Shown here: in pieces, positions 878 through 45,676 of the stretch | Layout: each line of letters starts with the position of its first letter | Numbering within the stretch: position 1 is the first letter of the stretch | From: Stramenopiles sp. TOSAG23-2 | Taxonomy: Eukaryota > Sar | DNA length: 54,609 bases | Direction: 5' to 3' | Assembly: GCA_900128395.1 (NCBI GenBank) | Contig: LT649260.1 | Coordinates: 1-54,609 of the forward strand | Program-made: the position numbers and the translations under genes | The notes under the pieces: generated by a model | The model's database searches: none | What the model was told of the DNA's origin: nothing | The model's input: only the letters and a program-made list of their open reading frames with translations

Positions 878-3800
878 ATGGATGAGTCTTCTACAAATCA
901 ATCACAACTATGGAGAGATAGTATTGATGAAAATACCATAGCGGAAAATGAAGCAACGGACGAAATTATAGATGATATGAAAGATCCTAGTCCTGTTAGA
1001 AAAGGAAGAAGATCATCTCCAACGAAAAAAGAAATAATACAAAAGCATATGACGCCCGGCGGTGTCGTCTCATCTTATAAAACTGTCGCTGCATGTGAAG
1101 ATGAACTGGAACGTGGACGTTTACAAGAAAAAATTGAAAAAGCACAGTTGGACGTACTGGCAAAACGGAAAGTTGCTTTAGAAGCTAGGGAAAAAGCTGA
1201 TCGCGAAATAGCGAAGCGACGGGAACTGGAACAACATATAGTGAAATTAAACAATGATATTGAACGATTAGGCCCACACAAAGAAAACGTGATTTTAGTT
1301 CAAAAAGTTAAAAAAGAACTAGCACAAACTGAATATCAATTACGAGAACAAAAACAATTTGAAGAGCGTGAAATAAAATTAATGTATCACTCGGAGAAAG
1401 AAGCTGATTATGCAGATATGTTACTGGAAAAATATAGTGATGCAGTTGGTGTATTGGAAAGGCACAAGGTGGAAGAACGTGATGAAAGTAAAATAGTAGC
1501 TAGGTATCGCAATAAGAAAGAGCAACAAAGTGCAATGCGATTTGAAAAAAGGCGTAAGAAGAAACAAGCACGGTTTGCAAAACAAATGGCTGCACAAGAT
1601 AAATTAGCACATAATCAAGTACAGGTAACAAAAATTCAACACGCTATTGCGAAGGATAATTATCGTACATTATTGAAAGAGCAAAAGGAAACATACAAAG
1701 AGGTAATGGATGTCCATGCAAAAGAGCATGATGAGCGTACTCGCGCATTGTTAAAATTGAAAAAAAGTACTGAAGTTGCAAATGCACAAATGCAAGGCAA
1801 AACTGCGAAGAAGAAAGCAAGGGAAAAGAAAATTGAGCAGAAACAAAAACAAGAGTTTGATGCTATCTTGGCAGATGGTCGGAATCCATATGAAGAATTT
1901 CGACGTAGGAAGCAACAAGCTAAATTTAAAGCAGATAAGCAAAAATTAATTGAAAAAGAAATTTATAATAAAAATGAAATAGCACGTAAAATGATCAAGG
2001 AAGAAATTCATTTTGTAAAAGAAGATAAAGTTATACGGGAACATGCAAAATTTGCTGATGTGTACCGTGCAAGCCTTGGACGCCATGTAACGGAGGAAAG
2101 AACGAAGAAATATATTCAAAAATTAACGAAAACTGGTTCCGATTTCGTCGATCCAACTGGTCGAATGTTTCGCATTGAAGGTTCTCAACATACAGCAATA
2201 CCGGACAATTCATTAGGCATTGGTCGTTTAGCGAAGGAAAGGCCAGATGTTATTGCAAAAAAAGCAAGCGAACGTGCAATGAGAGGTGTTTCTCATAATG
2301 AATTGCATTCATATGTCAAAGGTGCTGCGTTAGAACCTGATTCGGATGATGAAGGTGATAGCAAACCGACTGATAAATATGAGGAACTGCTAGGAAAAGT
2401 GGAAAAACCTGGTGCAACGTTGCAAATAAATAAAAATAATAGTGGCGCAGCACCAGTCATGACAGATTTCGAGAGTGATATTTTGAAGTCAGAGAAAGCG
2501 TCAACAAGAGCTTCCTCCGTTGCAACTACAGTAACTGATTCAGGGCGAAAAGTATATAAACAGCGCGAGTTGACGAAATTGGAAAAACAATATCAAGAGA
2601 AAGCAAAAATTAGGCATAGGGAAAATATCGTTGGCAAGCAAATTGTTTGGGGTAAAGAATTTAAAGGCGATGCATTTATTTCAAAACCAGCAAAAATAAT
2701 ATTTAAAGATTTTGATGTAGGGAAAAAAATGAAAATACGTTTTTCATTGACAAACGTTTCCTATACATTTAATCATTTCAAATTGCTTGATTTAGATGAT
2801 GAAATCAAAGATTTTTTTGAGATTACATATGACAAGCCAGGACGTATGAGTGCCGGTACCTCGTGTTCCATTTTAATTGAGTTTGATCCGAAGTTGAATA
2901 AAGATATTGTATCCATATTGCCAGTTTTGTCACACACCGGGCCGATTAATATTCCATTAGAATGTTACACAAAAAAAGTAGTCCCTTCCATATCTACTGC
3001 ATTGATTGATATGGGAACTGTTGTTTTAGGCGATGATGTTCAATCCACGTGCAAATTTTTAAATGATGGCGCTTTACCAACAAATTATCATATAGAAGAA
3101 ATTACATCGTTAGATGAGTTTAATTTTGATGCAGAGACCAATGAATTATTAGTTGATCCCGTGAAAGATATGGAAGTGAAACCAGCAATGTTAAATTATG
3201 CCGCAAATGATTCTATGAAGGGTTATAGTAAAAACAAAGTCCCATTTACATTTCGTCCTCGGCAACCGGGGAAGCTACATCGCGTTTTAAAAGTAACTTT
3301 TGATGGGTCTGACGTTGAGATTATTTTGACCATAACAGCATTATCATTGAAAGTTCCAATCTACGTCGATAAACGTTTAATCGATATGAAATGTTGTGTA
3401 TATGATAAATTATATCGTGCACCTGTTCGAGTCCGTAACCGTGGAAATGTGGCGTTAAAAATGCAAACGAAGGTACCAAAGGAATTACAACATGCATTAG
3501 GTATGTTTCCACCGATGGGTTTTGTTCAAGCTGCTGACAAAGCAAGTGGGGAAGCCGGCTTATTTGTCGTGCAAATGAAATTCAGAACTACGTCTGAGAC
3601 GCTAAAATTGTGTGAAAAATATCGAACGGATCCAAGTGATCCAAATATAATTGTCGTCCCCGTTACAATAGACGTTCCAGATCAAACATTAGCTGTTATT
3701 TTTCGCATTAAAAGCAAATTGACGTCATCTGATATCATTTTTGAACCGAAAGAAATTAATTTTGGACCGTGTTTTACCGAACAATCGGTTCACGTACCGT

Positions 3801-6019
3801 TAACAATCACCAATACATGTGCACTGCCACAAAAATTTGGCTTTGTAAATCTACCACGAGAAATTTCCGTTCCAGAAGACGATGGTTTCGGTACATTGTT
3901 ACCGAACGAAACGATTGTTCGAAATATAGTCTTTAGCCCAGTAGCAGCTGTGCCTGTGAAATTGAAATTAAAAATGTGCACATATTTAGATAGGGAATTT
4001 AACATAACATGTAATGGTGTAGGCGTCGAGCCAGTCATATCTTTAAATTATAATTTGATCAAAATGCAAGCTTGTCCAATAGGTGAAAAAGTTGTCAAGT
4101 CAATCATGGTACGAAATATATCGAAAAAAATGCAGATGTTTGAATTTAATGCCCCAAGTACGAAAATTGCTGGGATAACTGTATGTCCTAGTGTGGGAAA
4201 ATTAAAACCGAACGAGGCGTGTAGAGTGGAGGTTACATATAAGCCAGATTTGATCAAAATTGCGGCAGATGGTAGCGATACAAGCAAACCACCACCACCA
4301 CCACAAAAGAGCATTGAAGATCTAGAAGATGAAAATGCCAGTACGACGAGTAGCAGGCCTGGTAGTAAAAATAGCAAGAAAGGCAAAGGGAAAGGAAAAA
4401 AGTCAAGACCAAATTCAAGAGCTAGTAAGAAAAGTGATAAAAGCGAGGAAAAAGCTGAAAGTGAAGAAAAGAAAGAGGATCCATTAGCGTATTTAAATGA
4501 AACTGCGCTAGTGGTAGAGGAACCACCGTTTGTGATGCCACCACCATTTGAAGGATCGGTAGACTGGAGCGAGAAAGTAAATGGTGGTGAAGAGGATTGG
4601 AGTCGTCATGGTGTTTGGAAAATTCCATGTTATACAAAGCAATTAAATGACGATGGAAGTAGTACGAATGATAGCATTATGGACCAACCATTAGTCTGTT
4701 TGGAAGTACACACCGTGTCAACTGAAAAAATGTTTAATGCAGAAGTTCCCCACGACGTAATTAGCCGCTTCCCTGCATCTACCAGTAGCAAATTAGACTT
4801 TGGACAAATGGCTGTTGGCCAAGTCGAAGTTGCGCCAATTGTCGTTGCAAACTTGAACGCAAAAGCAACCATTTTAAGGATGATACAACCCCCAAATACG
4901 CATGGGCCATTTTCAGTTGTAAATGCATTGCGACCACTTGCTGAATTTGGAGATTTGCATGGCAAAGCTACACGAAATCTTTTTATACAATTCAGGCCAG
5001 AAAGGCAATTAAAATATGCAGAAAAAATTATAATAGAAACTGATTTTGGTGCTGCTACTATTCGTTTAATTGGACAAGGTGTCGAGCCTGTCTTGCAAGT
5101 AACGCCAGAGGATGGACAAGTTGATTTAGGCCAAGTCTTGGCAGGTGATTCTGCAAGGAAAACAATAATGTTGAAAAATTGCAGTGTATTCCCGTTGACA
5201 TACAATATCGTTGGAAGAGGTAGCATGCCGACTAATTACAATGGCACAAGCGTTTTTAGCTGCGTTCCAGAAGGTGCTGTGATACAACCGAATGCAGAGC
5301 AAGAAGTTACTGTATCTATACGACCTGATCACGAATTGGCTGAACCGTATTCGTGCGTCATGATGGTACGTGTGCCGACAACGGATGAAAAAAAGGCAGT
5401 CGAAAAAAGATTAACGTTAAAGGGCCGTTGCTGGCAAAGACAATTGTACGTTCGCGCGTTACAAGCGGCGGATGATGTTAAACCAGGATCCAAGGAAGCA
5501 GTTGATGATACCTTTTCGATACCACCTGAATTGGGTGTAGATACTGCAGAAGGTAGGGAAGATTTAAAAACCCCAGCAAGAACGCATAAGATTACTTTGA
5601 AATTCCCGAAAAAATCTGAAAATGCGGAAGTACCAACAAACGATGGTGGTAAAGGTCAAGGTGGATTAGTATTGGAAAAAGAAATCGCAATAGGTGCAAC
5701 TGCAATAAATGAACCAGGTCGGGATGGTAAGGGTGGTACGTTTGAAATCGGTGCACCGCTTGGTGGAGGTGCTGGTGCAGAATATTTTTCATTTGAACCA
5801 AATAAAGGTAGTTTATCTGCTGGTGGAGAAGTTATCGTTAAAGTTAAGTTTACGCCTCCAGCTGAGGAAGAAAAATCTGAGGATGATCCATGTGTTACAA
5901 TAGGTCGTTGGAATGAGTTGACTTATCCATGTATTTTAAAGGGTGGATATGTACCAGAAGGGGTCGAACCAGAAGAGCAAGTAGAGATTGTAGTGAGTGG
6001 TTTTGTTGTTGGCAATTAA
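878..6019 (+). CDS. CFAP74: CFAP74-like central-pair (C1d) axonemal protein
   Basis: A single uninterrupted 1713-codon frame. CFAP74 is a component of the C1d projection of the ciliary central pair and helps control beating. Seen here: a Lys/Glu-rich coiled coil over residues ~75-400, a linker, then from ~575 a run of ASH/MSP-like beta-sandwich domains to the C terminus. The block after residue ~580 (KQIVWGKEF, then FKDFDVGK, then SAGTSC and FDPKLNKD) matches the conserved core of animal CFAP74 in order and spacing. A Ser/Lys-rich low-complexity insert lies at ~1130-1210, preceded by a run of prolines. Length is within the family range (animal ~1580, algal ~1950). The start is the first ATG after upstream stops. 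The frame carries none of the tandem duplications seen in the next gene. The neighbouring TTLL gene fits a flagellar context. Confidence 0.9.
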   Translation: MDESSTNQSQLWRDSIDENTIAENEATDEIIDDMKDPSPVRKGRRSSPTKKEIIQKHMTPGGVVSSYKTVAACEDELERGRLQEKIEKAQLDVLAKRKVALEAREKADREIAKRRELEQHIVKLNNDIERLGPHKENVILVQKVKKELAQTEYQLREQKQFEEREIKLMYHSEKEADYADMLLEKYSDAVGVLERHKVEERDESKIVARYRNKKEQQSAMRFEKRRKKKQARFAKQMAAQDKLAHNQVQVTKIQHAIAKDNYRTLLKEQKETYKEVMDVHAKEHDERTRALLKLKKSTEVANAQMQGKTAKKKAREKKIEQKQKQEFDAILADGRNPYEEFRRRKQQAKFKADKQKLIEKEIYNKNEIARKMIKEEIHFVKEDKVIREHAKFADVYRASLGRHVTEERTKKYIQKLTKTGSDFVDPTGRMFRIEGSQHTAIPDNSLGIGRLAKERPDVIAKKASERAMRGVSHNELHSYVKGAALEPDSDDEGDSKPTDKYEELLGKVEKPGATLQINKNNSGAAPVMTDFESDILKSEKASTRASSVATTVTDSGRKVYKQRELTKLEKQYQEKAKIRHRENIVGKQIVWGKEFKGDAFISKPAKIIFKDFDVGKKMKIRFSLTNVSYTFNHFKLLDLDDEIKDFFEITYDKPGRMSAGTSCSILIEFDPKLNKDIVSILPVLSHTGPINIPLECYTKKVVPSISTALIDMGTVVLGDDVQSTCKFLNDGALPTNYHIEEITSLDEFNFDAETNELLVDPVKDMEVKPAMLNYAANDSMKGYSKNKVPFTFRPRQPGKLHRVLKVTFDGSDVEIILTITALSLKVPIYVDKRLIDMKCCVYDKLYRAPVRVRNRGNVALKMQTKVPKELQHALGMFPPMGFVQAADKASGEAGLFVVQMKFRTTSETLKLCEKYRTDPSDPNIIVVPVTIDVPDQTLAVIFRIKSKLTSSDIIFEPKEINFGPCFTEQSVHVPLTITNTCALPQKFGFVNLPREISVPEDDGFGTLLPNETIVRNIVFSPVAAVPVKLKLKMCTYLDREFNITCNGVGVEPVISLNYNLIKMQACPIGEKVVKSIMVRNISKKMQMFEFNAPSTKIAGITVCPSVGKLKPNEACRVEVTYKPDLIKIAADGSDTSKPPPPPQKSIEDLEDENASTTSSRPGSKNSKKGKGKGKKSRPNSRASKKSDKSEEKAESEEKKEDPLAYLNETALVVEEPPFVMPPPFEGSVDWSEKVNGGEEDWSRHGVWKIPCYTKQLNDDGSSTNDSIMDQPLVCLEVHTVSTEKMFNAEVPHDVISRFPASTSSKLDFGQMAVGQVEVAPIVVANLNAKATILRMIQPPNTHGPFSVVNALRPLAEFGDLHGKATRNLFIQFRPERQLKYAEKIIIETDFGAATIRLIGQGVEPVLQVTPEDGQVDLGQVLAGDSARKTIMLKNCSVFPLTYNIVGRGSMPTNYNGTSVFSCVPEGAVIQPNAEQEVTVSIRPDHELAEPYSCVMMVRVPTTDEKKAVEKRLTLKGRCWQRQLYVRALQAADDVKPGSKEAVDDTFSIPPELGVDTAEGREDLKTPARTHKITLKFPKKSENAEVPTNDGGKGQGGLVLEKEIAIGATAINEPGRDGKGGTFEIGAPLGGGAGAEYFSFEPNKGSLSAGGEVIVKVKFTPPAEEEKSEDDPCVTIGRWNELTYPCILKGGYVPEGVEPEEQVEIVVSGFVVGN

Positions 6020-18053: not shown

Positions 18054-19451
18054 CTACTCAAATTTTCCTCTCCAAGCCCATAAACCAGTAGCTGGTTGAG
18101 GAATAAAATAGATAATTTCTTCTTGGCATTCGCCCAAGTCGGAAGACACCCCACTCTCCAAAGTGTTCCACCCTGGTTGCAGCGTTTGCGGGTTATACTT
18201 AGCAAGGTATGCTGAGATATCCCCATACTCGTACCCCACACTTTCAACCTCTTCTTTTGTCAAACTGCCAGGGCAGTAGATAATGCGAAATCGGCCCTCG
18301 GATGTTCCATGTATTAAATGAGCGGCGGCGCTCAAATTCTTCATCAGATCTCGGTTGTTTTTCACGTGTTCCATAACTTCTGGTGTTGTCCGGTATCCAT
18401 ATTTTCTAATTAACTCATCTATTTTGGGATCTTCTCCAAATGTGTTCACGCCGGGTGCAAGCACTATTAGCTCGCCTTTGTCTGCGATTGCCATTCTCGT
18501 TCGATATATGCTTTTATTTCCCAGCCATGTAGAATGAAACTCGTTTGGATCTAAGTAGACCACAACTTTATGAATTGGCTTTTCAAGCATAAAAAAGTTG
18601 CACTGAAGGCTTAGTTTGCTCGCTCGATAGAAGCATTCAGTTCCAGAACCAATATACAATCCACGTGTAACGTACGACTGTGATAATGCATCATTTCCTC
18701 GGACTGTCAAAATGTAAACAATGGGTTTTTCGCTTAGAAATTTATCGCTAGCATAATCGAAAATTTTTCGTAGAGGATTTGCAGCTTGCCCCATCATCTT
18801 TTCCATACCATAACACGCACCTATGAAGTGGCTAAAGTTTATTGCATCGCTGCCACCTATGCCAACGAAAATGTTCTTGCTGTGATTTGCCATTCCAAGT
18901 ACTTCATGGGGAACAACTTGTCCAATAGATAGAATTAAATCATGATCGCCCTCCCAGAGGAGTTTATTCACCTGTGCTGGCCAAGGCTCGTTCACTGCGC
19001 CATCGCTCGCGGCGGCAACTAGTTCCTTTGGCACGTGGCCTACCGTTATAACGTCGTTACGCCAATCATGAACTCGGAAAATTGAATCTGGAATATCATC
19101 GCCAAACATTTTTTTACGTTGCTCTGCTGTCATGGGCTTGTGTGTGCCAAGGGCGGGCATTATATCAGTTATTTTTTCGCCGTAGTATTGATAGGCAAAG
19201 GACGTGACAACTCCGGCATTCGAGTGAAATCGGGTGTAGTCTGGTGGGACGATTAGTACTTTCTTCCTTTCTCCAAGTTTATCAAATGTTTCCCTAAGCG
19301 CATCTTGCAGCTGTGAGTCTGTCAAAATTTTGTCTGGTGCACCATTTTCATAGTGCAGCATTTGAAGATTGCGTCTATTCGATGTATCAAATTCGGTTTC
19401 GACTGAATTGGATTCTCTTGGTAAGTGTAGAGCAAACGGAGGAGTTTTCAT
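18054..19451 (-). CDS. LarA/DUF2088-family protein (nickel-pincer racemase-like)
   Basis: The family contains lactate racemase LarA, which uses a nickel-pincer nucleotide cofactor, and many 2-hydroxyacid racemase or epimerase relatives. I chose the ATG at 19451 (MKTPPFALHLPRESN); the frame is open 25 codons further but starts only with TTG and is hydrophobic. The protein has 465 residues, close to family length (~420-450). Motifs: PPDYTRFHS (~residue 70), ALGTHKPMT (~100), and SIGQVVPHEVLGMANHSKN with FVGIGGSDAINFSHFIGA (~175-210), which carry the expected Arg and His residues. The wording PHEVLGMAN...HFIGACYGME is that of bacterial DUF2088 subgroups rather than classic LarA. A bacterial origin by transfer is inferred. 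Its substrate is unknown. Confidence 0.8.
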   Translation of the reverse strand: MKTPPFALHLPRESNSVETEFDTSNRRNLQMLHYENGAPDKILTDSQLQDALRETFDKLGERKKVLIVPPDYTRFHSNAGVVTSFAYQYYGEKITDIMPALGTHKPMTAEQRKKMFGDDIPDSIFRVHDWRNDVITVGHVPKELVAAASDGAVNEPWPAQVNKLLWEGDHDLILSIGQVVPHEVLGMANHSKNIFVGIGGSDAINFSHFIGACYGMEKMMGQAANPLRKIFDYASDKFLSEKPIVYILTVRGNDALSQSYVTRGLYIGSGTECFYRASKLSLQCNFFMLEKPIHKVVVYLDPNEFHSTWLGNKSIYRTRMAIADKGELIVLAPGVNTFGEDPKIDELIRKYGYRTTPEVMEHVKNNRDLMKNLSAAAHLIHGTSEGRFRIIYCPGSLTKEEVESVGYEYGDISAYLAKYNPQTLQPGWNTLESGVSSDLGECQEEIIYFIPQPATGLWAWRGKFE

Positions 19452-20027
19452 ATTCAAAAGACGCAAAAGAACAACAAACAACAACAATAAACAATAGAGA
19501 GTAATAAAAATAAAATAATAAAACAAACAAATATAATATAATAATTGGAATTAGAATATTAATAAAATATACGACGACGGGCCCTTCCAGGCTTGCCCAG
19601 CTTGCCAGCTCTTGGTGGTAATTGCAACAACAACAACAATTGAAGTAATAATTAAAATTATTATATTATTAGGTACATGGATACAGTAGAAAGTATGAAA
19701 ATACGTATTGATATATTAATATTAATATTAATATTGATATCCCTTAAAAACAAAAAATAGCGATCACGTGCAACATCCCACCCAGACTTTAAATTTTAAA
19801 TATCAGTATCGACTATCATAGTATACTATTTTTAAAAAAATCCTATTATAGCACTAGTACTATAGTGGCCCCGATGAATGTCCCCATGAGGCCCCAATGT
19901 TCCCAATGGCCCCGGTTTAAGGTGAATTGCGAACTTTGAAAAACAAAAAAAGAAATTTTAGCCAGCTGCCGGAATCGCTAATATTGTGATTTTCCTATGT
20001 TAGCAGTGTTATTTATGTCACTTTTAA

Positions 20028-26259: not shown

Positions 26260-29200
26260 ATGTCAACGGAACAAGAGGATAATAATAAACCAAAACATGT
26301 GACACGTGAAGGAAAAGATGGCTCTGGGTATGTAGGAGGCTGGTTAGGTGGCAAGGCACAAGGTAAGGGGAAATATACATGGCCAGACGGTGCTTATTAT
26401 GACGGTGACTGGGATAAAGGTTTAAGTCATGGATTTGGTGAATTAGTCGAAGCTAATGGGCGTATATATAAAGGATTTTGGGTTCGTGATAAACAACATG
26501 GCCACGGAAATATCACATATCCAGACGGTACGACGTATCAAGGTGATTTTAAAAATGGGAAGAAACATGGTAGTGGTACTATGAACATTTCAACCGGGGA
26601 TGTGTATGTTGGTGAATTTGAAAATGATAAAATGCATGGAAATGGTAAAATGGTACGGAACAAAACTGGCATTGAATTTGAAGGTGTCTTTGTAAATGGT
26701 ATCATCAAAGAAGGTACATTTAAGTCACCTAATGGCGGTTCATATGTTGGTCAATTTTTAAGGAAAGGCCAACAACATGGGAAAGGAATTTACTTTGATC
26801 CTAATGGAGAGAAAGAATATGACGGATATTTTATATTAGGGAAAACATGTTCAAAAGAAGAATTTGATAAATATGAAATAGAACATCCAATGTCATCCGA
26901 AGAACAGCAACAAAATGTTAATAACACCGATAATAATAATAATAAAAACAACAACAACAACAATAATAATAATAATGCAAATGTCACAGATTATAAAGGG
27001 AATTATCCAATTTATTATTTAATACATGAAAATCGACCAGCGGAGGAAATTTTACAATACATCGACAACAATTCACCAACGGAGAAAGTTTTAGGTAGTA
27101 TTGATATCAAGACTGGTCGTACATTATTACATACATGTTGTTACAGGGGAGATGATATTAGGACAATACGTAAATTAATAAAATATGCACCAAAAAATGT
27201 ATTGGTGAGAGATAATCGTGGTGGTTATCCACTGCATAGTTTTTGTTTTGGACTTCGTGAGGACAATCGTTTGGATATTTTATATGAGTTACTGAAAGCG
27301 TATCCTGGTGCCATTAAAGAAAAAACACGCAATGGAAATACCCCATTGAGCCTTGCATGTTGGAGGGGTTTAAAGGCTATAATACCGGCCTTGTTAGCAT
27401 TTGATAAAAACCAGATAAACGTGCCAAACAATAGGGGAGAAAGACCACGAGATTTTGTAGTCAATAATCCAGAAATATTAAATATGTTGGAAAATGTTGA
27501 GCAAGTAATCAATACAGTTAAATCTACAATGTTAGAAAGCGAAAGCGGTAAATTGATGGTTGATTTAATCGAACGTGTAAATAAGAATACAACGGCTAAA
27601 AATGAAGAATTAGAAAAAGCAAAGAGGAAATTACGAGATGTGTTAAAAATGAAAAATAGCCAACCTTGGATGAGGTCTAAATTAATGATCGTTGGTGAAG
27701 GTAGAAGTGGAAAAACTAGTACGTTACGTAATTTAATGGGTCAAGAATTTCGCCATGATGAGAAAAGCACGATTGGTGCAAAAACAGATGAATGCATTGT
27801 AAACCATTTTAGTGTAAACATAAATCGATTAAATAGTGAAGAGGCTTGGAGGTCTATAAAGAATGATCCAAATTCAGAAGGTGATTTTGATCATGCAGCT
27901 GCGATGGCATTGAACAAAGAGCTGGAACGTGGAGCAGATCATAATAGTAATAATAACAATACACCTATCAACCAAATGGAAACAAAGAAAGACAATGTTG
28001 ATATGGATGAGGCAAACATTGATGAAGAAACTAATTCTATGAATGGTAAGATTAAAAAAAAAACACCACCACCAAGTCTAAATATTGAAACATCAAATGT
28101 AAATAATAATAATAATATGGAAAATGGCACAACAATTACAAACACAAAAAAGCCATTAATAACATCATCTCAATTGCCGCCCGAAATAATTAAACATTAT
28201 GGTGAAATGAACATAGAAAACTTGTTAAAAGTAAGTGATAGTTTAAAGCTTGGTGTTTGGGACTATGGGGGGCAAGAAATATTCTATGCAATACATCATC
28301 TATTTTTAACTAGATTTGGCGTATATTTAGTATTATTTGACATGCAAAAATTATTAGTTGTTGATTCGGAAACTTCGAATGAATATGCAAAAGCAATGAA
28401 ACTTCTTCATTTTTGGTTGAATTCCATTGCATTATATGGCCGATCCACCTTTCATAACAATAATAACAATGATAGTAAAATGGAAGATAAAGGATCCCCA
28501 ATTTTATTAATTGGCTCGCACAAGGATATCATTAAAGACAAAGATAAACATCGTGAAATATCTGAAAAGTTAAAGTTAGAATTTTCGAATCATTTTAAAG
28601 ATCAGAGAATTATACAAAACGATGAAGACACTTTATGTTTCTTCCCTGTTGATAATACGGATAATAATGATGAGATAATAAAACGTGTGCGCAACAAAGC
28701 GGCGCAAGCCATAGCAGAAGAATCATATATACAAGATGAATATCCGATGCCATGGATGAAAGTTTGTGATGAATTAAAGAAGAAAAGTCGACAAATAGCA
28801 CATTTGAGTTTTGATGAAGTTTGTGATCTGAGTCGGGAAGCTGGAATAATTGATAAAGATGAAGTAAAAGCCATGTTGGAGCATTTTCATGAACTAGGTG
28901 TAGTCATTTACTATGGAAATCGGGAGGAATTAAATAAATTAGTTATCTTAGATCCACAGTGGATTGTTGATCGTATATCTGACGTTATACGAGAGTACAG
29001 TGCTGAAGCCGCGTTGCATTCCAGGGCACGTGATCAAATAGCAATGTCCATGTCAGCAGAATGGACTGAATTGACTACTAGAGGAATTTTAAGTAAACGT
29101 TTATTGCGACATTTGTGGAGAGGTGATAGGCCAAATCTACAATTTCTGTTAACATTGATGCAAACATTTGCCTTGATTGTACCGCTAAAAATTCCTGCAG

Positions 29201-31449
29201 AAGGTTCCATTCTGTTGGAATATATGGTGCCAAATTTGTTGCCAAGTAATGAAAGGTTGAAAGCAACAATTCTTAGTAAAATAAATAGTGAGAATTCCAA
29301 TAAAAACAAGGTTATAGAAATTTCTTTTAAAGATTTTGTACCAAATGGCATCTTTGGTCGATTTTTAGTTGTGGCTTTGGAGTATAATTTTTCCTTGCAA
29401 CTGCAACAAATGGATATAGCTCCTCCAAACGCTGCACGATTAACAACATTAGCAGAAATAAATATCAATTCTCCTAAAAATATTGCACGAAGCTTTTCAT
29501 CTAAAGATCTGGAAGAGAACGGCTCGGAATTGTATAGATCATGGGCTGCATTTTCTATTGAAAAAATTGGCTTTGTAATTACGAAAGAAAAATATGGCTT
29601 TACTGTGTATGTATTAGGCGATAACAATGATACGAGGAACGATAATTTAACCCGTTTATGCAAATTACTTAGTGGTTTATTAGATATCTTAAATACTGAA
29701 TTTTACAATTCAAGGTTAGAAATATATATGAAAACGCCAAACGATGTTGATCCTGTGCCTTTGAATAGTAACAATTTTACTTGGCCTAGACCATCACCAA
29801 ATTTATTGGCTACACCAAAATCAAAAACGGCCCCGGCATATTTACGGCGGAAAGCTGTTGAACAAGGTTACTATACCCTGCCGGATTTAACTAATAGAAG
29901 ACAGGGTAATAACGAACGAGATTCAAACTTTGATTTAGTTCAAGTTGAAAACTTTGTTGTCGGGCGTAATGGGTATGGGAAAATACATTGGTTAACACCA
30001 TTGGATTTAACTGGCGTTGGTGCAATTGATGATATTATTTACATTCAAAATGGTGACGTTTCCCTATATGAATTCCATGAGAAAGAACCAGCGGTTGGGG
30101 AAGAGTTAAATAATCCTGCTAGAATTACATTTGAAAATGTGTACCCGAATGTAGTGACGTTTAAAACAGAAAATAAAGAAGCTAGTGAGGATGAACAGAA
30201 AAAAATTATGGCGCGCTTTAAACGTCGTATTCAGCGTATTGCAAATAAACGCAACTATAAAAACAATAAATATGACGAAAATACGGGCATTTGGCAGTTT
30301 GAGGTAGAGCATTTTTCTCGTCATGGTTATCACGGCGATGATGATGATTTAGTGAAATGGCTACAGGAAACACTATGGTCAAAACCGAAAATCCAAGAGA
30401 AGAAGAAGGAACAAGCTGAAGATTACGCTGGGGGTCTCATTTTTCATGAATTTTATTATGAAGAAGTAATAGGTGACGATCCTCCATCCGAATTGGTATT
30501 AGTATCGGCTGGAATTCATCCCGTGCATGTGAAGAAATTAATACGTGTATTGTATAAGCTCAACCCTAATCGGGAAGATTATAAACAGCTAGTTGAGCAT
30601 TATAATAAAGGGGGAGGTGTGGTAGCTACGTATAACCACCCACAAGACACATCTACTACAAATTCGGGAAATCAAAAACAATCTAGTTCAAATAATAATA
30701 ATAATAACAAGCCGGAAAAACAGAAGCCGGCAGCTGTCGTCTCACAAGTGAAACCGGTAGAAACAACACTTGCTTATGATGTGTTTTTAAGTCATGACTG
30801 GGGGACATTCAAATGCCCAGACAAAGGTACTGCTGTAAAAAATCATGAAAGAGTCAAGCTTATTAATGAAGCTTTAAAGGAAAGTGGCTTGGTAACTTGG
30901 TTTGATGAAGAAGAAATGAGTGGATGTTTAGATGATGCAATGGAGAAGGGAATATCGCAATCTACTTGCTTCTTAGCCTTTATTACAGAAAATTATATGA
31001 AGAAAGTAGGCGGATTAGCACCTGCTGGCGATGCCGACAATTGTCGGAGGGAGTTTGTCTACGCGGCTTTGAAAAAACAACGGCCAAATAAAATGATGAT
31101 ACCTATAGTCATGGATGCTACACAAAGAACTCCAGCTGAGTGGATTTCACTTGTTGCTTTTCATTTAGGCAGTGATCTGTATATGGATATGTCTTCTCCT
31201 AAACTATGGGATGCTACAAAACCTGAATCTAAAGACGAGTTTAAAAAATGTGTTTCAAAACTAATAACTGATTTTATTGAGAGGAAAATTAAGAAAGACG
31301 GAAAGACTTTGATTAAATCGAAAAATGTAGTGGTTGGCTCTGCTAGAAATGCTGTAAATGCTATTAGAGGTACCACAAGTAACAACACAACTAGTGCACC
31401 ACTGTCGAAGCCATCATTGAAACAAAGAAAAAATTCTGGGCCTAAATGA
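26260..31449 (+). CDS. MORN-ankyrin-Roc-COR protein with a Nup98-type autoproteolytic domain and a C-terminal TIR domain
   Basis: One intact 1729-codon frame. In order: about seven or eight MORN repeats (~20-195; GYVGGWLGGKAQGKG onward), an Asn run, ankyrin-like repeats (~250-420), Roc GTPase with P-loop GEGRSGKT (479-486), switch DYGGQ (668-672) and SHKD in place of NKxD (753-756), then COR (~790-1040). At ~1212-1360 is a domain that matches the Nup98 autoproteolytic domain: GYYTLPDL, then ENFVVGRNGYGKIHW, DDIIYIQNGDVSLYEF, PAVGEELNNPARITFENVYP, and WQFEVEHFSRHGY. H1351-F1352-S1353 is the known HF/S self-cleavage triad. A linker and Asn run precede TIR (~1504-1690; YDVFLSHDWG, WFDEEEM), with E1598 in NCRREF at the place of the catalytic Glu of NAD-cleaving TIRs. 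Cleavage would yield 1352- and 377-residue parts. An immune-type or stress receptor role is inferred. Confidence 0.9.
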   Translation: MSTEQEDNNKPKHVTREGKDGSGYVGGWLGGKAQGKGKYTWPDGAYYDGDWDKGLSHGFGELVEANGRIYKGFWVRDKQHGHGNITYPDGTTYQGDFKNGKKHGSGTMNISTGDVYVGEFENDKMHGNGKMVRNKTGIEFEGVFVNGIIKEGTFKSPNGGSYVGQFLRKGQQHGKGIYFDPNGEKEYDGYFILGKTCSKEEFDKYEIEHPMSSEEQQQNVNNTDNNNNKNNNNNNNNNNANVTDYKGNYPIYYLIHENRPAEEILQYIDNNSPTEKVLGSIDIKTGRTLLHTCCYRGDDIRTIRKLIKYAPKNVLVRDNRGGYPLHSFCFGLREDNRLDILYELLKAYPGAIKEKTRNGNTPLSLACWRGLKAIIPALLAFDKNQINVPNNRGERPRDFVVNNPEILNMLENVEQVINTVKSTMLESESGKLMVDLIERVNKNTTAKNEELEKAKRKLRDVLKMKNSQPWMRSKLMIVGEGRSGKTSTLRNLMGQEFRHDEKSTIGAKTDECIVNHFSVNINRLNSEEAWRSIKNDPNSEGDFDHAAAMALNKELERGADHNSNNNNTPINQMETKKDNVDMDEANIDEETNSMNGKIKKKTPPPSLNIETSNVNNNNNMENGTTITNTKKPLITSSQLPPEIIKHYGEMNIENLLKVSDSLKLGVWDYGGQEIFYAIHHLFLTRFGVYLVLFDMQKLLVVDSETSNEYAKAMKLLHFWLNSIALYGRSTFHNNNNNDSKMEDKGSPILLIGSHKDIIKDKDKHREISEKLKLEFSNHFKDQRIIQNDEDTLCFFPVDNTDNNDEIIKRVRNKAAQAIAEESYIQDEYPMPWMKVCDELKKKSRQIAHLSFDEVCDLSREAGIIDKDEVKAMLEHFHELGVVIYYGNREELNKLVILDPQWIVDRISDVIREYSAEAALHSRARDQIAMSMSAEWTELTTRGILSKRLLRHLWRGDRPNLQFLLTLMQTFALIVPLKIPAEGSILLEYMVPNLLPSNERLKATILSKINSENSNKNKVIEISFKDFVPNGIFGRFLVVALEYNFSLQLQQMDIAPPNAARLTTLAEININSPKNIARSFSSKDLEENGSELYRSWAAFSIEKIGFVITKEKYGFTVYVLGDNNDTRNDNLTRLCKLLSGLLDILNTEFYNSRLEIYMKTPNDVDPVPLNSNNFTWPRPSPNLLATPKSKTAPAYLRRKAVEQGYYTLPDLTNRRQGNNERDSNFDLVQVENFVVGRNGYGKIHWLTPLDLTGVGAIDDIIYIQNGDVSLYEFHEKEPAVGEELNNPARITFENVYPNVVTFKTENKEASEDEQKKIMARFKRRIQRIANKRNYKNNKYDENTGIWQFEVEHFSRHGYHGDDDDLVKWLQETLWSKPKIQEKKKEQAEDYAGGLIFHEFYYEEVIGDDPPSELVLVSAGIHPVHVKKLIRVLYKLNPNREDYKQLVEHYNKGGGVVATYNHPQDTSTTNSGNQKQSSSNNNNNNKPEKQKPAAVVSQVKPVETTLAYDVFLSHDWGTFKCPDKGTAVKNHERVKLINEALKESGLVTWFDEEEMSGCLDDAMEKGISQSTCFLAFITENYMKKVGGLAPAGDADNCRREFVYAALKKQRPNKMMIPIVMDATQRTPAEWISLVAFHLGSDLYMDMSSPKLWDATKPESKDEFKKCVSKLITDFIERKIKKDGKTLIKSKNVVVGSARNAVNAIRGTTSNNTTSAPLSKPSLKQRKNSGPK

Positions 31450-36962: not shown

Positions 36963-38642
36963 ATGAGTAACAATAACGAGGGTCAAATGCGTTTAGATGC
37001 ATTAAATATATTAGGATTAACAGAAAATCAAGATAATGAGAAAGAAATTAGACAAGCCTATTTATTAAAAAGTCGAATCTATCATCCAGATAAACGAAAT
37101 CGTATGATAAATAATAATAATAATAATAATCATGAAATGTTTTACATTATAAAAGAAGCATATGAATATTTATTGTCCAAAAATATCATGGAAGAATATT
37201 TTTGTGTATCTAGTGATAATAATGGATCTAGTGTGTCATTTAATAAACAAAACCCTTCATTATTTTCCAATAATAATAATAATAATAATAATACAAATGA
37301 AAATGTAAATAATAATGAAAACAATAATAATACAACGAACGATGATGTAGCTGATGATAATAATAATTCTACTGTTACGTTTCTCTTATGTCCTTTATGC
37401 AATCAACCATTTAAAAAAGGCAGACCATTACGTGCCCATTTGCAATCACCAAAACATGATCTATCTGATGCATCAACGCCATCATTAGCAAATGTCATAA
37501 AAGATGCATTGCAAGGTATTTCGATTGAAGGAAAAGTTGTCTCATCCACTGAACCATATTCAACAACGGCAACGAAAGGATTGAATCAAAAAACATCTAC
37601 ACATGTTGCTGTTAGTATTAAAGGTGTTAGACGTTTAAAATTTCATCCAGAAAAATTAGTAGTATTAAATAGCAATGGTAAAAAAACAAATCAAAATAAT
37701 AACAATCAAAGAGGAAATGGTGTTAGCAAACGTAGGAAAGGTGAAATAACACTTCATCAAGGTAAAATACGAGCAAAAAAAAAAGCAGCTGCAGCTGCTG
37801 CTACGATGGCTTTACGTAAAAAGAAAATATTACATCCTGGTTTGACAGCATGTAGAGATGGTGATTTTCAAGCAGTAAAAGAACTATTAAATAATGGAAG
37901 TTATAATGTTCTTGATGATATAGATAACAATGGATCAAATGGTATACATTGGTGTGCTGGTTCTGGATATTTGGATATATTGAAATATTTATTAAATTGG
38001 TGTAAAATAAAATATGATAAGGATGATATCGTACATTATCGCGATAAACGTAGTGGGCGTAATGCTTTTCATTGGGCAAGTCGTAATGGTCGTATACATA
38101 TATGTCAATATTTATTAGATGAGTATAACATGGATATAAATAGTATTACAAATGATGGTACATCTGCATTTCATTTGACTGCTTGGTCTGGTGAATTTGA
38201 TATGTGTAAATGGCTAGTTGCAAATAAATGTGATCCACATATTATCAATATATTTGGTTGCAATGCAATACATTTTGCCTGTTTAGCTGGAAATTTGAAT
38301 ATGTGTAAATGGTTATATCAAGATTTAAAATTAGATGTGCGATTGGTTCAATTACAAGGCCATCATACATTACACAAGGCAGCATGGGCGGGTCATAAAG
38401 ATATTTGCGAATGGTTACAAGATGATATTGGTATAGATCCTATGAGTAACGTAATGGATAATAAAGGCCATACAGCTGTAAGTAGATATTTATATAGAGA
38501 AACAGAGAGAGATTCTTTATGATATTTTTTAACCTTTTTCATCTCTTCTAACAATATAAAATACACACACACACAGTCAAGACTTGCTGAGATTGCTGGT
38601 CATGTTGAATTAGCAGAATGGTTAGTAAGACATCGCGTGTAA
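36963..38642 (+). CDS. J-domain / C2H2 zinc finger / ankyrin-repeat protein
   Basis: Two exons, 36963-38477 and 38577-38642, 526 residues. An N-terminal J-domain (~10-75; HPD intact in SRIYHPDKRNR) would activate an Hsp70 partner. After an Asn-rich spacer a C2H2 finger follows (CPLCNQPF...HLQSPKH, ~140-163, spacing 2-12-5), then a basic Ala/Lys-rich stretch (KKKAAAAAATMALRKKK) that could bind nucleic acid or act in nuclear import. Ankyrin repeats fill ~270 to the end. The last repeat is completed only by exon 2 (SRLAEIAGHVELAEWLVRH), which makes the join convincing. The closest partner in the window is the Hsp110 gene ~1.7 kb upstream, diverging from it; a shared chaperone network is possible but not shown. 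Confidence 0.88.
38478..38576 (+). other. Intron, 99 bp, GT-AG, phase 0
   Basis: Donor GTAAGTAGAT after ...GHTA, acceptor in a CA-rich tract (ACACACAG). Without splicing the frame stops at 38520-38522 and loses half an ankyrin repeat. Confidence 0.92.
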
Positions 38643-43051: not shown

Positions 43052-45676
43052 TTAATTCCATTTTCTGAATACTGGTTGACATGCTTCGCCAACTAACAGT
43101 CCATCTGTATTTCCTTGATCCAATGCTTTTTTGTATACAACTAATGATTCTTTATATGCACGAATAATGTAATCAATATCTTTTTCAGTATGTGTATAAC
43201 AAGGTACAAAAATACCTTGGTAAAGAACACCACGAGCAATCATCTCTTGCAAAAATAATGTTCTTAATGCAGCATTAAAGACACCTTCACTATCTTTAAA
43301 GATGGAAATGCTTACCCAGGTGTTATTCATGACTTGGATATTTTTTTCCATACCAGCATCTATAACAGCTTGCCTTATGCCAGCATCTAAACGCGCTACC
43401 ATACGATGTTGATGCCCAATAACATCATTGTCACGGTATGTTTGTATTACAGCTAATGCAGCGGCTAAGCCGTGTGCTTCAGCACCATGTGTAGTTGAGC
43501 ATAAAAATAAACGTGGATATTCTTTTCCATCTTTATCAAAATGTTTTTTTATGCCACCAATATCCATAATTGCTGCTTTCCCTGTCATTGCACAGAAGGA
43601 ATAACCATTTCCAATGGATTTACCCCAACAGCAAATATCAGCATCATAACCATATACAGTTGTGGCACCAGGGAAACCGGAACGATAACCACTAACCATT
43701 TCATCCACAATGAATACAATACCATTTTCTTTACAAATTTGTCCAATTTCTAGATGTGCCTTAGCAACTTCTTCTTTTGAATATTTACATGCATCTGCAA
43801 TGGAATCTGGCTCAGTAATTAATCCAGCGATTTGATCTGGGTATTTAGCAATCAAATCTCTCAATGACTGTGGATTCATACTATCATACGTTACTGTCAT
43901 AGCTGCAATTTCTTTTGGGATACCAAAATCACATGGCGTAGTGCAAATAAACCAATCATCGTAAGAGTAAAATGGATGATTATGTGGCCTTGCAACCAAT
44001 TTTCTGCCAGTATAACCGCGTGCTAATTTCATAGCAGCAGTTGTTACCGTCGAACCATTTTTTGCCATTTTAATACGATCATGACCTGGAATTTGTGCTA
44101 GAAATTCTTTTGCTAATTTCCTTTCCAAATCTGCTGGACGTTGAAAATTTGCACCTAAATATAGTTGTTTAACGACTTCTTCAATTACAGGTTTATATGC
44201 ATGGCCTAGACTGATACTAGTCAACCCCATGGAGCAATCGACATATTCATTACCATCAATATCCCATACGTGAGAACCATCTCCACGTGCAATTGCTGCT
44301 GGGGATCGTTCTGGGAATTGATCATCGCCTTTTGAATACGTATGGGCGCCACCTGGGATCAATTGGTGAATTTCACTGCGGTATACATTCGATTTGGTGA
44401 AGTTTGTGATCAATTTGATTGGACGTACTTCCCCTTCTGCCATTGTACCTGGTGTGACCGGCATTTCAATACCAGTTTTTGTATATGCATTGGAAATTTT
44501 TGCAACTGCAGCAATAACATCATTGACATCATCGTTCGTCATCAATGGGAAACATGGCAATGTGATCATTTGTCTGTATGTTGCCATTGCATTTGGACAA
44601 GTCGTTTCTAACGGATATTTACCGTCAAAATTTTTTTGGTAAAAAGCATGTGCATGGACTGGCATGTAATGAACATTTACACCAATATTTTCCTTACGTA
44701 AAGCAACGTAAAATGCATCACGATCACATGATAATTTTTCCAAATCAATCCTGATAACATATATATGATGTGCATTTAAAACATCAGGTATGTTAACGAT
44801 TGGGTTGATTGTATCGAATTTGCTGAATGCATCATTGTACATTGATGCAATTTCATTACGGCGTTTTATGAATTTGTCAATTTTGTTCACTTGACTGGAA
44901 CCCAATCCACATTGCATATCAGTAATACGATAATTATATCCTAAACTAACCATATCATAACGATGGGATGCTTGTGCTTCCCGTGCACGATAATCACGGT
45001 TGATACCATGTGAACGGAATATACACATTTGTTTGTAGTAATCTTCATTGTTAGTCACAATCATACCACCTTCTCCAGTAGTAATATTTTTCACTGGATG
45101 GAAGCTTAATGTTGTCAAATCAGCGATGCTACCAACTTTACGTCCTTTGTAAGTTGCACCAAGTGCATGCGAAGCGTCTTCAATTAAAATCAAATTATGA
45201 CGTCTACATATTTCAAGTAGAGGATCTAAATCAACTGGTTGACCACACATATCAACTGCTATGATTGCTTTCGTGCGTGGCGTGATCAACCCTTCGACAC
45301 TATCCACATCGATATTAAGCGTATCTGGGTTGACATCAGCAAAGACTACAGTTGCGCCTTCATAAAGAACAGAGTTGGATGATGCAACAAAAGTAACATC
45401 TGCGACAATAACTTCGTCACCTTTTGTAATACCAGCAGCATTCACAGCAACATGCAAAGCAGCAGTACCATTGCAAACAGCTACGCCATACTTTGCACCA
45501 GTATAATCGCATACATCTTGTTCAAATTTTCCAACACGTGGACCAGTTGTTAAGTATGGATCGGTAATACATTTCACCACTTCTTTGATATCATTTTCAT
45601 CAATTGTTTGTTTACCATATGGTAAATTGGACTCACGTACTGGTTTGCCACCATTCACAGCTAAAAAGGATGCCAT
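43052..45676 (-). CDS. Fusion of a PseC-like DegT aminotransferase with a GSA-aminomutase-like class III aminotransferase
   Basis: One 874-residue frame, no stop between halves. Residues ~8-400 form a DegT/DnrJ/EryC1/StrS sugar aminotransferase. Its wording (LPYGKQTIDENDIKEVV, LTTGPRVGKFEQ, FHPVKNITTGEGGM, SLGYNYRITDMQCGLG, IGVNVHYMPVH) is closest to PseC-type UDP-4-keto-sugar C4 aminotransferases of pseudaminic acid synthesis; K196 is the PLP lysine. Residues ~415-874 form a fold-type I class III enzyme like glutamate-1-semialdehyde 2,1-aminomutase (LIPGGAHTYSKGDDQFPE, GLTSISLGHAY, FIVDEMVSGYRSGFPG, K686 in WGKSIGNGY, STTHGAEAHGLA). Both active-site lysines are intact. Both halves look bacterial; transfer as, or later formation of, a fusion is inferred. 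No transit or signal peptide. The role may lie in an amino-sugar or nonulosonic-acid-like surface glycan. Confidence 0.9.
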   Translation of the reverse strand: MASFLAVNGGKPVRESNLPYGKQTIDENDIKEVVKCITDPYLTTGPRVGKFEQDVCDYTGAKYGVAVCNGTAALHVAVNAAGITKGDEVIVADVTFVASSNSVLYEGATVVFADVNPDTLNIDVDSVEGLITPRTKAIIAVDMCGQPVDLDPLLEICRRHNLILIEDASHALGATYKGRKVGSIADLTTLSFHPVKNITTGEGGMIVTNNEDYYKQMCIFRSHGINRDYRAREAQASHRYDMVSLGYNYRITDMQCGLGSSQVNKIDKFIKRRNEIASMYNDAFSKFDTINPIVNIPDVLNAHHIYVIRIDLEKLSCDRDAFYVALRKENIGVNVHYMPVHAHAFYQKNFDGKYPLETTCPNAMATYRQMITLPCFPLMTNDDVNDVIAAVAKISNAYTKTGIEMPVTPGTMAEGEVRPIKLITNFTKSNVYRSEIHQLIPGGAHTYSKGDDQFPERSPAAIARGDGSHVWDIDGNEYVDCSMGLTSISLGHAYKPVIEEVVKQLYLGANFQRPADLERKLAKEFLAQIPGHDRIKMAKNGSTVTTAAMKLARGYTGRKLVARPHNHPFYSYDDWFICTTPCDFGIPKEIAAMTVTYDSMNPQSLRDLIAKYPDQIAGLITEPDSIADACKYSKEEVAKAHLEIGQICKENGIVFIVDEMVSGYRSGFPGATTVYGYDADICCWGKSIGNGYSFCAMTGKAAIMDIGGIKKHFDKDGKEYPRLFLCSTTHGAEAHGLAAALAVIQTYRDNDVIGHQHRMVARLDAGIRQAVIDAGMEKNIQVMNNTWVSISIFKDSEGVFNAALRTLFLQEMIARGVLYQGIFVPCYTHTEKDIDYIIRAYKESLVVYKKALDQGNTDGLLVGEACQPVFRKWN

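Follow-up and report, generated by a model that had tools for sequence, protein, structure and literature searches.

Architecture of the ROCO gene

The window analysed here, a 54,609-nucleotide stretch of DNA from Stramenopiles sp. TOSAG23-2, carries a gene on its forward strand (26260..31449, +) that is translated into 1729 amino acids in a single open frame with zero internal stops. The other five frames of the same interval hold 53 to 237 stops apiece, and 1729 open codons would be expected by chance with a probability of about 10^-64 at the base composition of the ORF itself. GC3 along the frame is fairly even, ranging from 0.247 to 0.326 across eight segments. Pfam finds, in this order, MORN, ankyrin, Roc, COR-A, peptidase S59 and TIR, with a helical spacer between S59 and TIR. 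This matches the MORN-ankyrin-Roc-COR-APD-TIR architecture that an earlier, sequence-only reading had claimed for one frame, and the motifs it had quoted were recovered at the same residues: the P-loop GEGRSGKT at 479-486 and DYGGQ at 668-672 in Roc, H1351-F1352-S1353 at the end of the S59 domain and E1598 in the TIR domain. Of that reading as a whole, the architecture and the cleavage motif stand by Pfam and by motif position; cleavage itself, a lasting complex of the products, gating, NADase activity and an immune role are what we infer from them.

All features named below lie on the forward strand. The MORN repeats (residues about 20-205; 26317..26874) are matched by Pfam PF02493 at E 5.7e-23 and by MORN1 structures in the PDB. 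They are followed by ankyrin repeats (residues about 250-410; 27007..27489), for which Ank_2 reaches E 3.6e-7 with the whole protein and 7.2e-12 with the N-terminal piece. The Roc GTPase (residues about 470-818; 27667..28713; PF08477, E 9.8e-15) is matched from residue 474, its end boundary being assigned in this analysis. COR-A follows at residues 829-994 (28744..29241; Pfam E 6.4e-22), and next to it lies a stretch that we call COR-B-like (29242..29739), boundary and name being assigned here without a library match. With Roc followed by COR in one chain, the protein is by Pfam a ROCO protein. ROCO GTPases are the family to which LRRK2 belongs. The Nup98-type autoproteolytic domain (APD; residues 1200-1356; 29857..30327) is followed by the helical spacer (1357-1445; 30328..30594), a low-complexity linker (1446-1503; 30595..30768) and the TIR domain (1504-1675; 30769..31284; PF13676, TIR_2, E 1.7e-12, matched at 1527-1644). 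Among the Pfam hits of the protein up to E 1 there are no FG-repeat or Nup96 families, and none of ZU5 or FIIND.

The assembly of this organism comprises 17.45 Mb in 793 contigs and may be incomplete. Elsewhere in the window, at 878-6019 (+), the flagellar protein CFAP74 occupies one 1713-amino-acid frame, which points to an organism with a flagellum and few introns.

Relatives and conservation

A protein search with residues 440-1729, in which the best 7999 candidates by common words were scored, returned 11 proteins. P0002 (2063 amino acids, ENA source) repeats the order MORN, ankyrin, Roc, COR-A, S59 and TIR, with 44% identity over the alignment. Over the stretch searched, P0003 (EukProt g7604.t1) and P0002 are 100% identical, and P0003 misses internal stretches, including part of Roc; it looks like a model of the same gene, and the two are counted as one. 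P0004 contains Roc, COR-A and TIR with no S59 match up to E 0.1, and the remaining eight (P0005-P0012) contain Roc and COR-A, S59 and TIR being absent from their precomputed domains. A second search, with residues 1092-1620 of P0002, gave five proteins out of 6035 candidates: P0003, P0002, P0013, P0014 and P0015. P0013 (2726 amino acids) carries Roc, COR-A and, after COR, an S59 domain (E 4e-18), with no TIR match up to E 0.1. P0014 is a fungal Nup98-Nup96, and P0015 combines Roc, COR-A and a weak TIR match (E 1.3e-4) without an S59 match. Judged by these domain matches, three divergent proteins, representing two genomes or more, have S59 after Roc-COR: a single COR-A match was found in the 17.45 Mb assembly, that of the ROCO gene itself, so P0002 and P0013 lie outside this genome.

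The continuous frame, the even GC3 and the same domain order in P0002 rule out an assembly or annotation artefact. The sequence-only reading depended on the APD and TIR parts belonging together, and they do lie in a single uninterrupted frame, both here and in P0002 from another genome.

Four further searches define how far the family was followed. Two scans of viral contigs found no relative, the patterns of the second coming from the MORN repeats only, and a scan of prokaryote genome contigs with two short APD stretches found none either; the reach of all these scans is close relatives. A protein search with residues 1190-1470 yielded none from 1127 candidates. It also missed P0002, which marks this search as insensitive and makes its result no evidence of rarity.

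P0013 has a long C-terminal part (residues about 1940-2726), of which the piece 2381-2640 is without a significant Pfam match. Near residue 2514, the letters RNFIAH resemble a HEPN motif. We rejected a HEPN-like effector, as no HEPN family matches up to E 10 and the R-x4-H pattern occurs three times in the protein, placing RNFIAH at chance level.

Between the window protein and P0002, with segment borders set in this analysis, identity is highest in COR-A (63%), followed by the APD (50%, 69/138), TIR (48%), MORN (46%) and Roc (45%). It is lower in the spacer (40%, 35/87), the ankyrin repeats (36%) and the COR-B-like stretch (33%, 50/151), and drops to 23-24% in the linker (7 of 31 aligned positions) and the C-terminal tail. 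The APD is as conserved as TIR and Roc, indicating that it is kept by selection.

The autoproteolytic domain and its predicted cleavage site

The peptidase S59/Nucleoporin2 profile (PF04096) matches residues 1202-1356 along nearly its entire length (positions 2-147 of 148) with E 1e-29 and a score of 104 bits, the cut-off being 28.4. The domain that had been recognised from its motifs alone is thus significant by profile, far above the cut-off. Compared with solved structures by sequence alone, it finds Nup98 APDs, the best at E 4.8e-20. An AlphaFold2 model of the APD, built with five sequences in the alignment, is of low confidence (mean pLDDT 59.5), and its most confident part is the helical segment after the cleavage site, where 10-residue blocks from about residue 1366 reach pLDDT 71-91. 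In a Foldseek search with this low-confidence model, the best 13 PDB matches are all APDs of Nup98, Nup145 or Nup116; nine of the 13 have E values of 0.001 or lower (best 3.3e-5), but the TM-scores by target are low (0.36-0.45).

The predicted site reads VEHF/SRHGY. In alignment with Nup98 and Nup145N sites, H1351-F1352-S1353 (30310..30318) coincides with the human HFS and the fungal sites at the C-terminal end of the APD, and the scissile bond would fall between 30315 and 30316. HFS is present once more, at residue 516 within Roc; the S59 match does not extend there, and we attribute this copy to chance. The site reads HF/S-RHGY in the window protein, HF/T-IQGW in P0002 and HF/T-VDPE in P0013, so that Ser or Thr directly follows HF in all three ROCO APDs. 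This makes S1353, or Thr in the relatives, a possible nucleophile. Self-cleavage reactions of this kind begin from Ser, Thr or Cys, the Phe before the nucleophile is structurally important, and cleavage of Nup98 is only slightly affected by H862A or H862Q, according to the relevant passages of PMC3210808. PDB entry 5hb6 is, by its title, the T994A mutant of the Nup145N APD from C. thermophilum, and VEHFATYGL in its chain has Ala at the nucleophile position; Thr therefore appears to be the natural nucleophile in this studied fungal APD, a point that is based on title and chain, with no paper on it found among open-licence papers.

Behind the nucleophile, R1354-H1355-G1356-Y1357 (30319..30330) aligns with K-Y-G-L of human Nup98-Nup96. 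Sun and Guo (2008) reportedly found the human Nup98 tail to be held via Tyr866, Gly867 and Leu868. These tail-holding residues are partly kept in the ROCO APDs: against the human KYGL, the window protein has RHGY, P0002 IQGW and P0013 VDPE, so that Gly is present in two of the three and an aromatic residue replaces Leu in the same two.

But what about the organism's own Nup98? With a threshold of E 0.001, a six-frame search of the assembly, exon by exon, found S59 twice, once in the ROCO gene and once on another contig, C383 (L002:1495-3381, -). The latter belongs to a stand-alone frame of 628 amino acids rich in FG/GLFG-type repeats, which by its sequence is a canonical Nup98. The ROCO protein is accordingly not a Nup98 by sequence, the FG Nup98 being a separate gene. 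A displaced or duplicated Nup98 gene is ruled out as well, since the FG Nup98 is separate and on another contig and the ROCO APD is 29% identical to its APD over 127 positions. The own Nup98 APD ends in PHFNM followed by a stop, with Asn at the nucleophile position and no Nup96 part following in frame. The DNA at this end reads CATTTTAATATGTAA; even with the GTAA as a splice donor, the residue following HF would remain Asn. A search of the assembly for Nup96 gave no match, and its control was silent too. The ROCO APD is thus the only one of the assembly's two S59 matches to keep Ser or Thr. The text of PMC6062611 describes HFS as lost in the Nup98 homologue of Plasmodium and kept in Toxoplasma, and HFN in the own Nup98 may accordingly have no connection with the ROCO gene.

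The two S59 domains bear on two further explanations of why a ROCO protein would carry an APD. One is that a dead APD is retained as a scaffold domain without cleavage, for which the own Nup98 provides a precedent of a nucleophile-less APD in the same genome; the post-site residues, which are unlike those in human, also speak for it. We regard this as highly doubtful, because Ser or Thr after HF is retained in all three ROCO APDs and the APD is conserved to the same degree as the TIR domain. The other is nuclear pore docking, in which the APD, cleaved or not, would anchor the protein at the pore by way of Nup88 or Nup96. The APD of Nup98 does serve as an anchor of this kind, binding the Nup96 N terminus or the Nup88 propeller, as described in the sections of PMC11148069 on this domain. 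However, the ROCO protein has no FG-repeat family by Pfam, and docking needs no nucleophile, yet all three ROCO APDs keep Ser or Thr where the own Nup98 has Asn. Docking thus seems very unlikely to us.

In unrooted trees of nine APDs, the three ROCO APDs cluster together (UFBoot 97 in IQ-TREE; 0.963 in FastTree). The own Nup98 APD falls outside this cluster and is its neighbour in FastTree with weak support (0.740). With nine APDs of about 150 residues each, the data set is small, and the tip branches of P0013, the own Nup98 and human are at least 1.0 long. As to the origin of the domain, a ROCO ancestor may have captured the pore APD once, as the self-cleaving latch of an immune-type receptor. 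In this organism, whose own pore protein has lost the site, the receptor would then be the one place found in which the chemistry can survive, and the C-terminal cargo would vary, with TIR in two proteins and something else in P0013. To us the balance between this scenario and its negation is even. If true, the principle seen in NLRP1 would have arisen a second time, on an unrelated fold.

TIR effector and proposed release mechanism

TIR_2 matches number at least 14 in the 17.45 Mb assembly, that of the ROCO gene among them. With the TIR of the window protein alone, the PDB search up to E 0.1 finds only Cat1 (E 0.0038), in an alignment that does not cover E1598. A profile of five TIRs, three of which are other TIRs of the same genome, finds 59 PDB sequences up to E 0.1, with Cat1 (3.2e-11) and AbTIR (4.4e-10) in the lead. 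In this profile, E1598 (31051..31053) is invariant in five of five aligned TIRs and lies over the Glu of the NAD-cleaving Cat1 and AbTIR, which we take to be catalytic there. Among the 13 other TIRs of the genome, 12 have C-x-x-E at this place by eye; it is absent in L038. E1598 is hence a candidate catalytic Glu in a C-x-x-E helix, on the strength of the alignment. As side observations, at least 14 matches are a sizeable set for a small protist genome, and several of these TIRs are alike by eye, for example L042, L044, L045 and L047.

A structure model of spacer and TIR had a mean pLDDT of 47.0 and was discarded. By eye, the last helix of the spacer is SAM-like, and this pattern suggested a SAM domain after the APD. 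Pfam gives no match on the spacer, the PDB profile search lends SAM no support, and a comparison by hhalign with own-genome SAM domains gives a probability of 0.4% in global and 0.9% in local mode (P 0.097 and 0.061); the likeness to SAM is thus not significant. The hhalign set consisted of ten SAM domains, 11 having been extracted from 17 SAM_1 places and one dropped for containing a stop.

We propose that a ROCO-TIR receptor acquired a Nup98 APD between COR and TIR, and that the self-cleaved, tethered TIR chain is freed on disturbance of the N-terminal part, a mechanism that we consider reasonably probable. After translation, the APD would fold and strain the F1352-S1353 bond, which S1353, or Thr in the relatives, would attack in an N-to-O acyl shift as proposed for Nup98. 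A single cut after F1352 would yield two chains, the spacer becoming the N-terminal part of the C-terminal chain. With its new N terminus seated in the APD groove, the C-terminal chain would remain bound to the N-terminal one. The N-terminal chain, consisting of the MORN/ankyrin sensor, the Roc-COR switch and the APD, would keep the TIR chain inactive until the N-terminal chain changes conformation or is degraded and the spacer-TIR chain is released. Once freed, this chain would assemble and signal, probably by NAD cleavage. That the APD would retain the TIR chain and let it go upon disturbance of the N-terminal part is drawn by analogy with known self-cleaving proteins. As laid out in PMC11148069, where it treats Nup98, the APD cleaves during or soon after translation, and cleavage serves biogenesis and anchoring at the pore. 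For NLRP1, the account in PMC8081665 makes cleavage a prerequisite, with degradation of the N-terminal part releasing the C-terminal fragment; NLRP1 and CARD8 both employ self-cleavage as a principle of release (PMC8081665, PMC3210808).

Could the APD simply split the protein? In constitutive splitting without gating, two proteins would be made in equal amounts from one mRNA and the TIR chain would act on its own. Splitting is what the APD achieves in Nup98-Nup96, in the description given by PMC11148069, and the site is intact in the ROCO APD. However, both TIR-bearing proteins with an APD place it precisely between switch and effector, and a ROCO-TIR protein without an S59 match also exists. 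Moreover, the cleaved Nup98 APD rebinds the Nup96 N terminus, again as reported in PMC11148069, so that full separation is not expected. Such splitting therefore appears rather unlikely to us, and we retain release of a tethered TIR chain as the preferred reading.

The ROCO protein resembles several known systems in part. With NLRP1, CARD8 (FIIND, ZU5-UPA) and PIDD it shares the layout of a multidomain receptor with a self-cleaving domain beside the effector, and these proteins cut before a Ser that follows Phe, as is predicted here (PMC8081665, PMC3210808, in their treatment of these receptors). It differs from them in the cleaving domain, the Roc-COR switch and the TIR effector. NLRP1, CARD8 and PIDD share the ZU5-UPA fold, and their effectors are CARD or death domains. 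With the Nup98-Nup96 and Nup145 precursors, the ROCO protein has the same autoproteolytic domain in common, with HF/S or HF/T, but it lacks FG-repeat and Nup96 families and holds the APD inside a ROCO-TIR chain. SARM1, a TIR NAD hydrolase, likewise has a helical domain before its TIR. Its architecture is ARM-SAM-TIR, and we know of no self-cleavage in SARM1; the spacer of the ROCO protein, in contrast, has no significant SAM match.

Roc-COR and TIR in one chain are also found in P0004, but without an S59 match, and in a TPR-ROCO-TIR protein of Chondrus crispus (PMC11378527). The main text of that article, which discusses brown-algal ROCO genes as candidate immune receptors, contains neither 'nucleoporin' nor 'autoproteol' (0 occurrences). 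For the ROC-COR proteins of Trichoplax, a legend in PMC4104024 gives TIR as one of the domains and names no APD, and PMC7159879 names Roco in the references only. No description of a ROCO or TIR protein with a Nup98 APD was found in the open-licence literature searched, in agreement with the sequence-only reading, which knew of no described system with the nucleoporin APD as latch of an immune-type receptor. ROCO-TIR proteins are thus already known, whereas the combination of ROCO or TIR with a Nup98 APD is undescribed, as far as open-licence papers were searched. If the protein cleaves, protists would have independently built a way of holding an effector by a broken bond, from a nucleoporin domain, a ROCO GTPase and a TIR domain, and the APD would gain a role outside the nuclear pore. 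The ROCO-APD-TIR arrangement would also be a direct test of whether tethering across a broken bond generally gates effectors.

Finally, three other frames in the window merit mention in their own right. At 43052-45676 (-), two aminotransferase matches, DegT/DnrJ/EryC1 (E 1.2e-120) and class-III (E 1.1e-31), are combined in one 874-amino-acid frame, which looked unusual. A 519-amino-acid frame at 36963-38522 (+) has a DnaJ domain followed by ankyrin repeats, and at 18054-19526 (-) there is a match to the N-terminal domain of lactate racemase (LarA-like, E 1.9e-12) on this eukaryotic contig.
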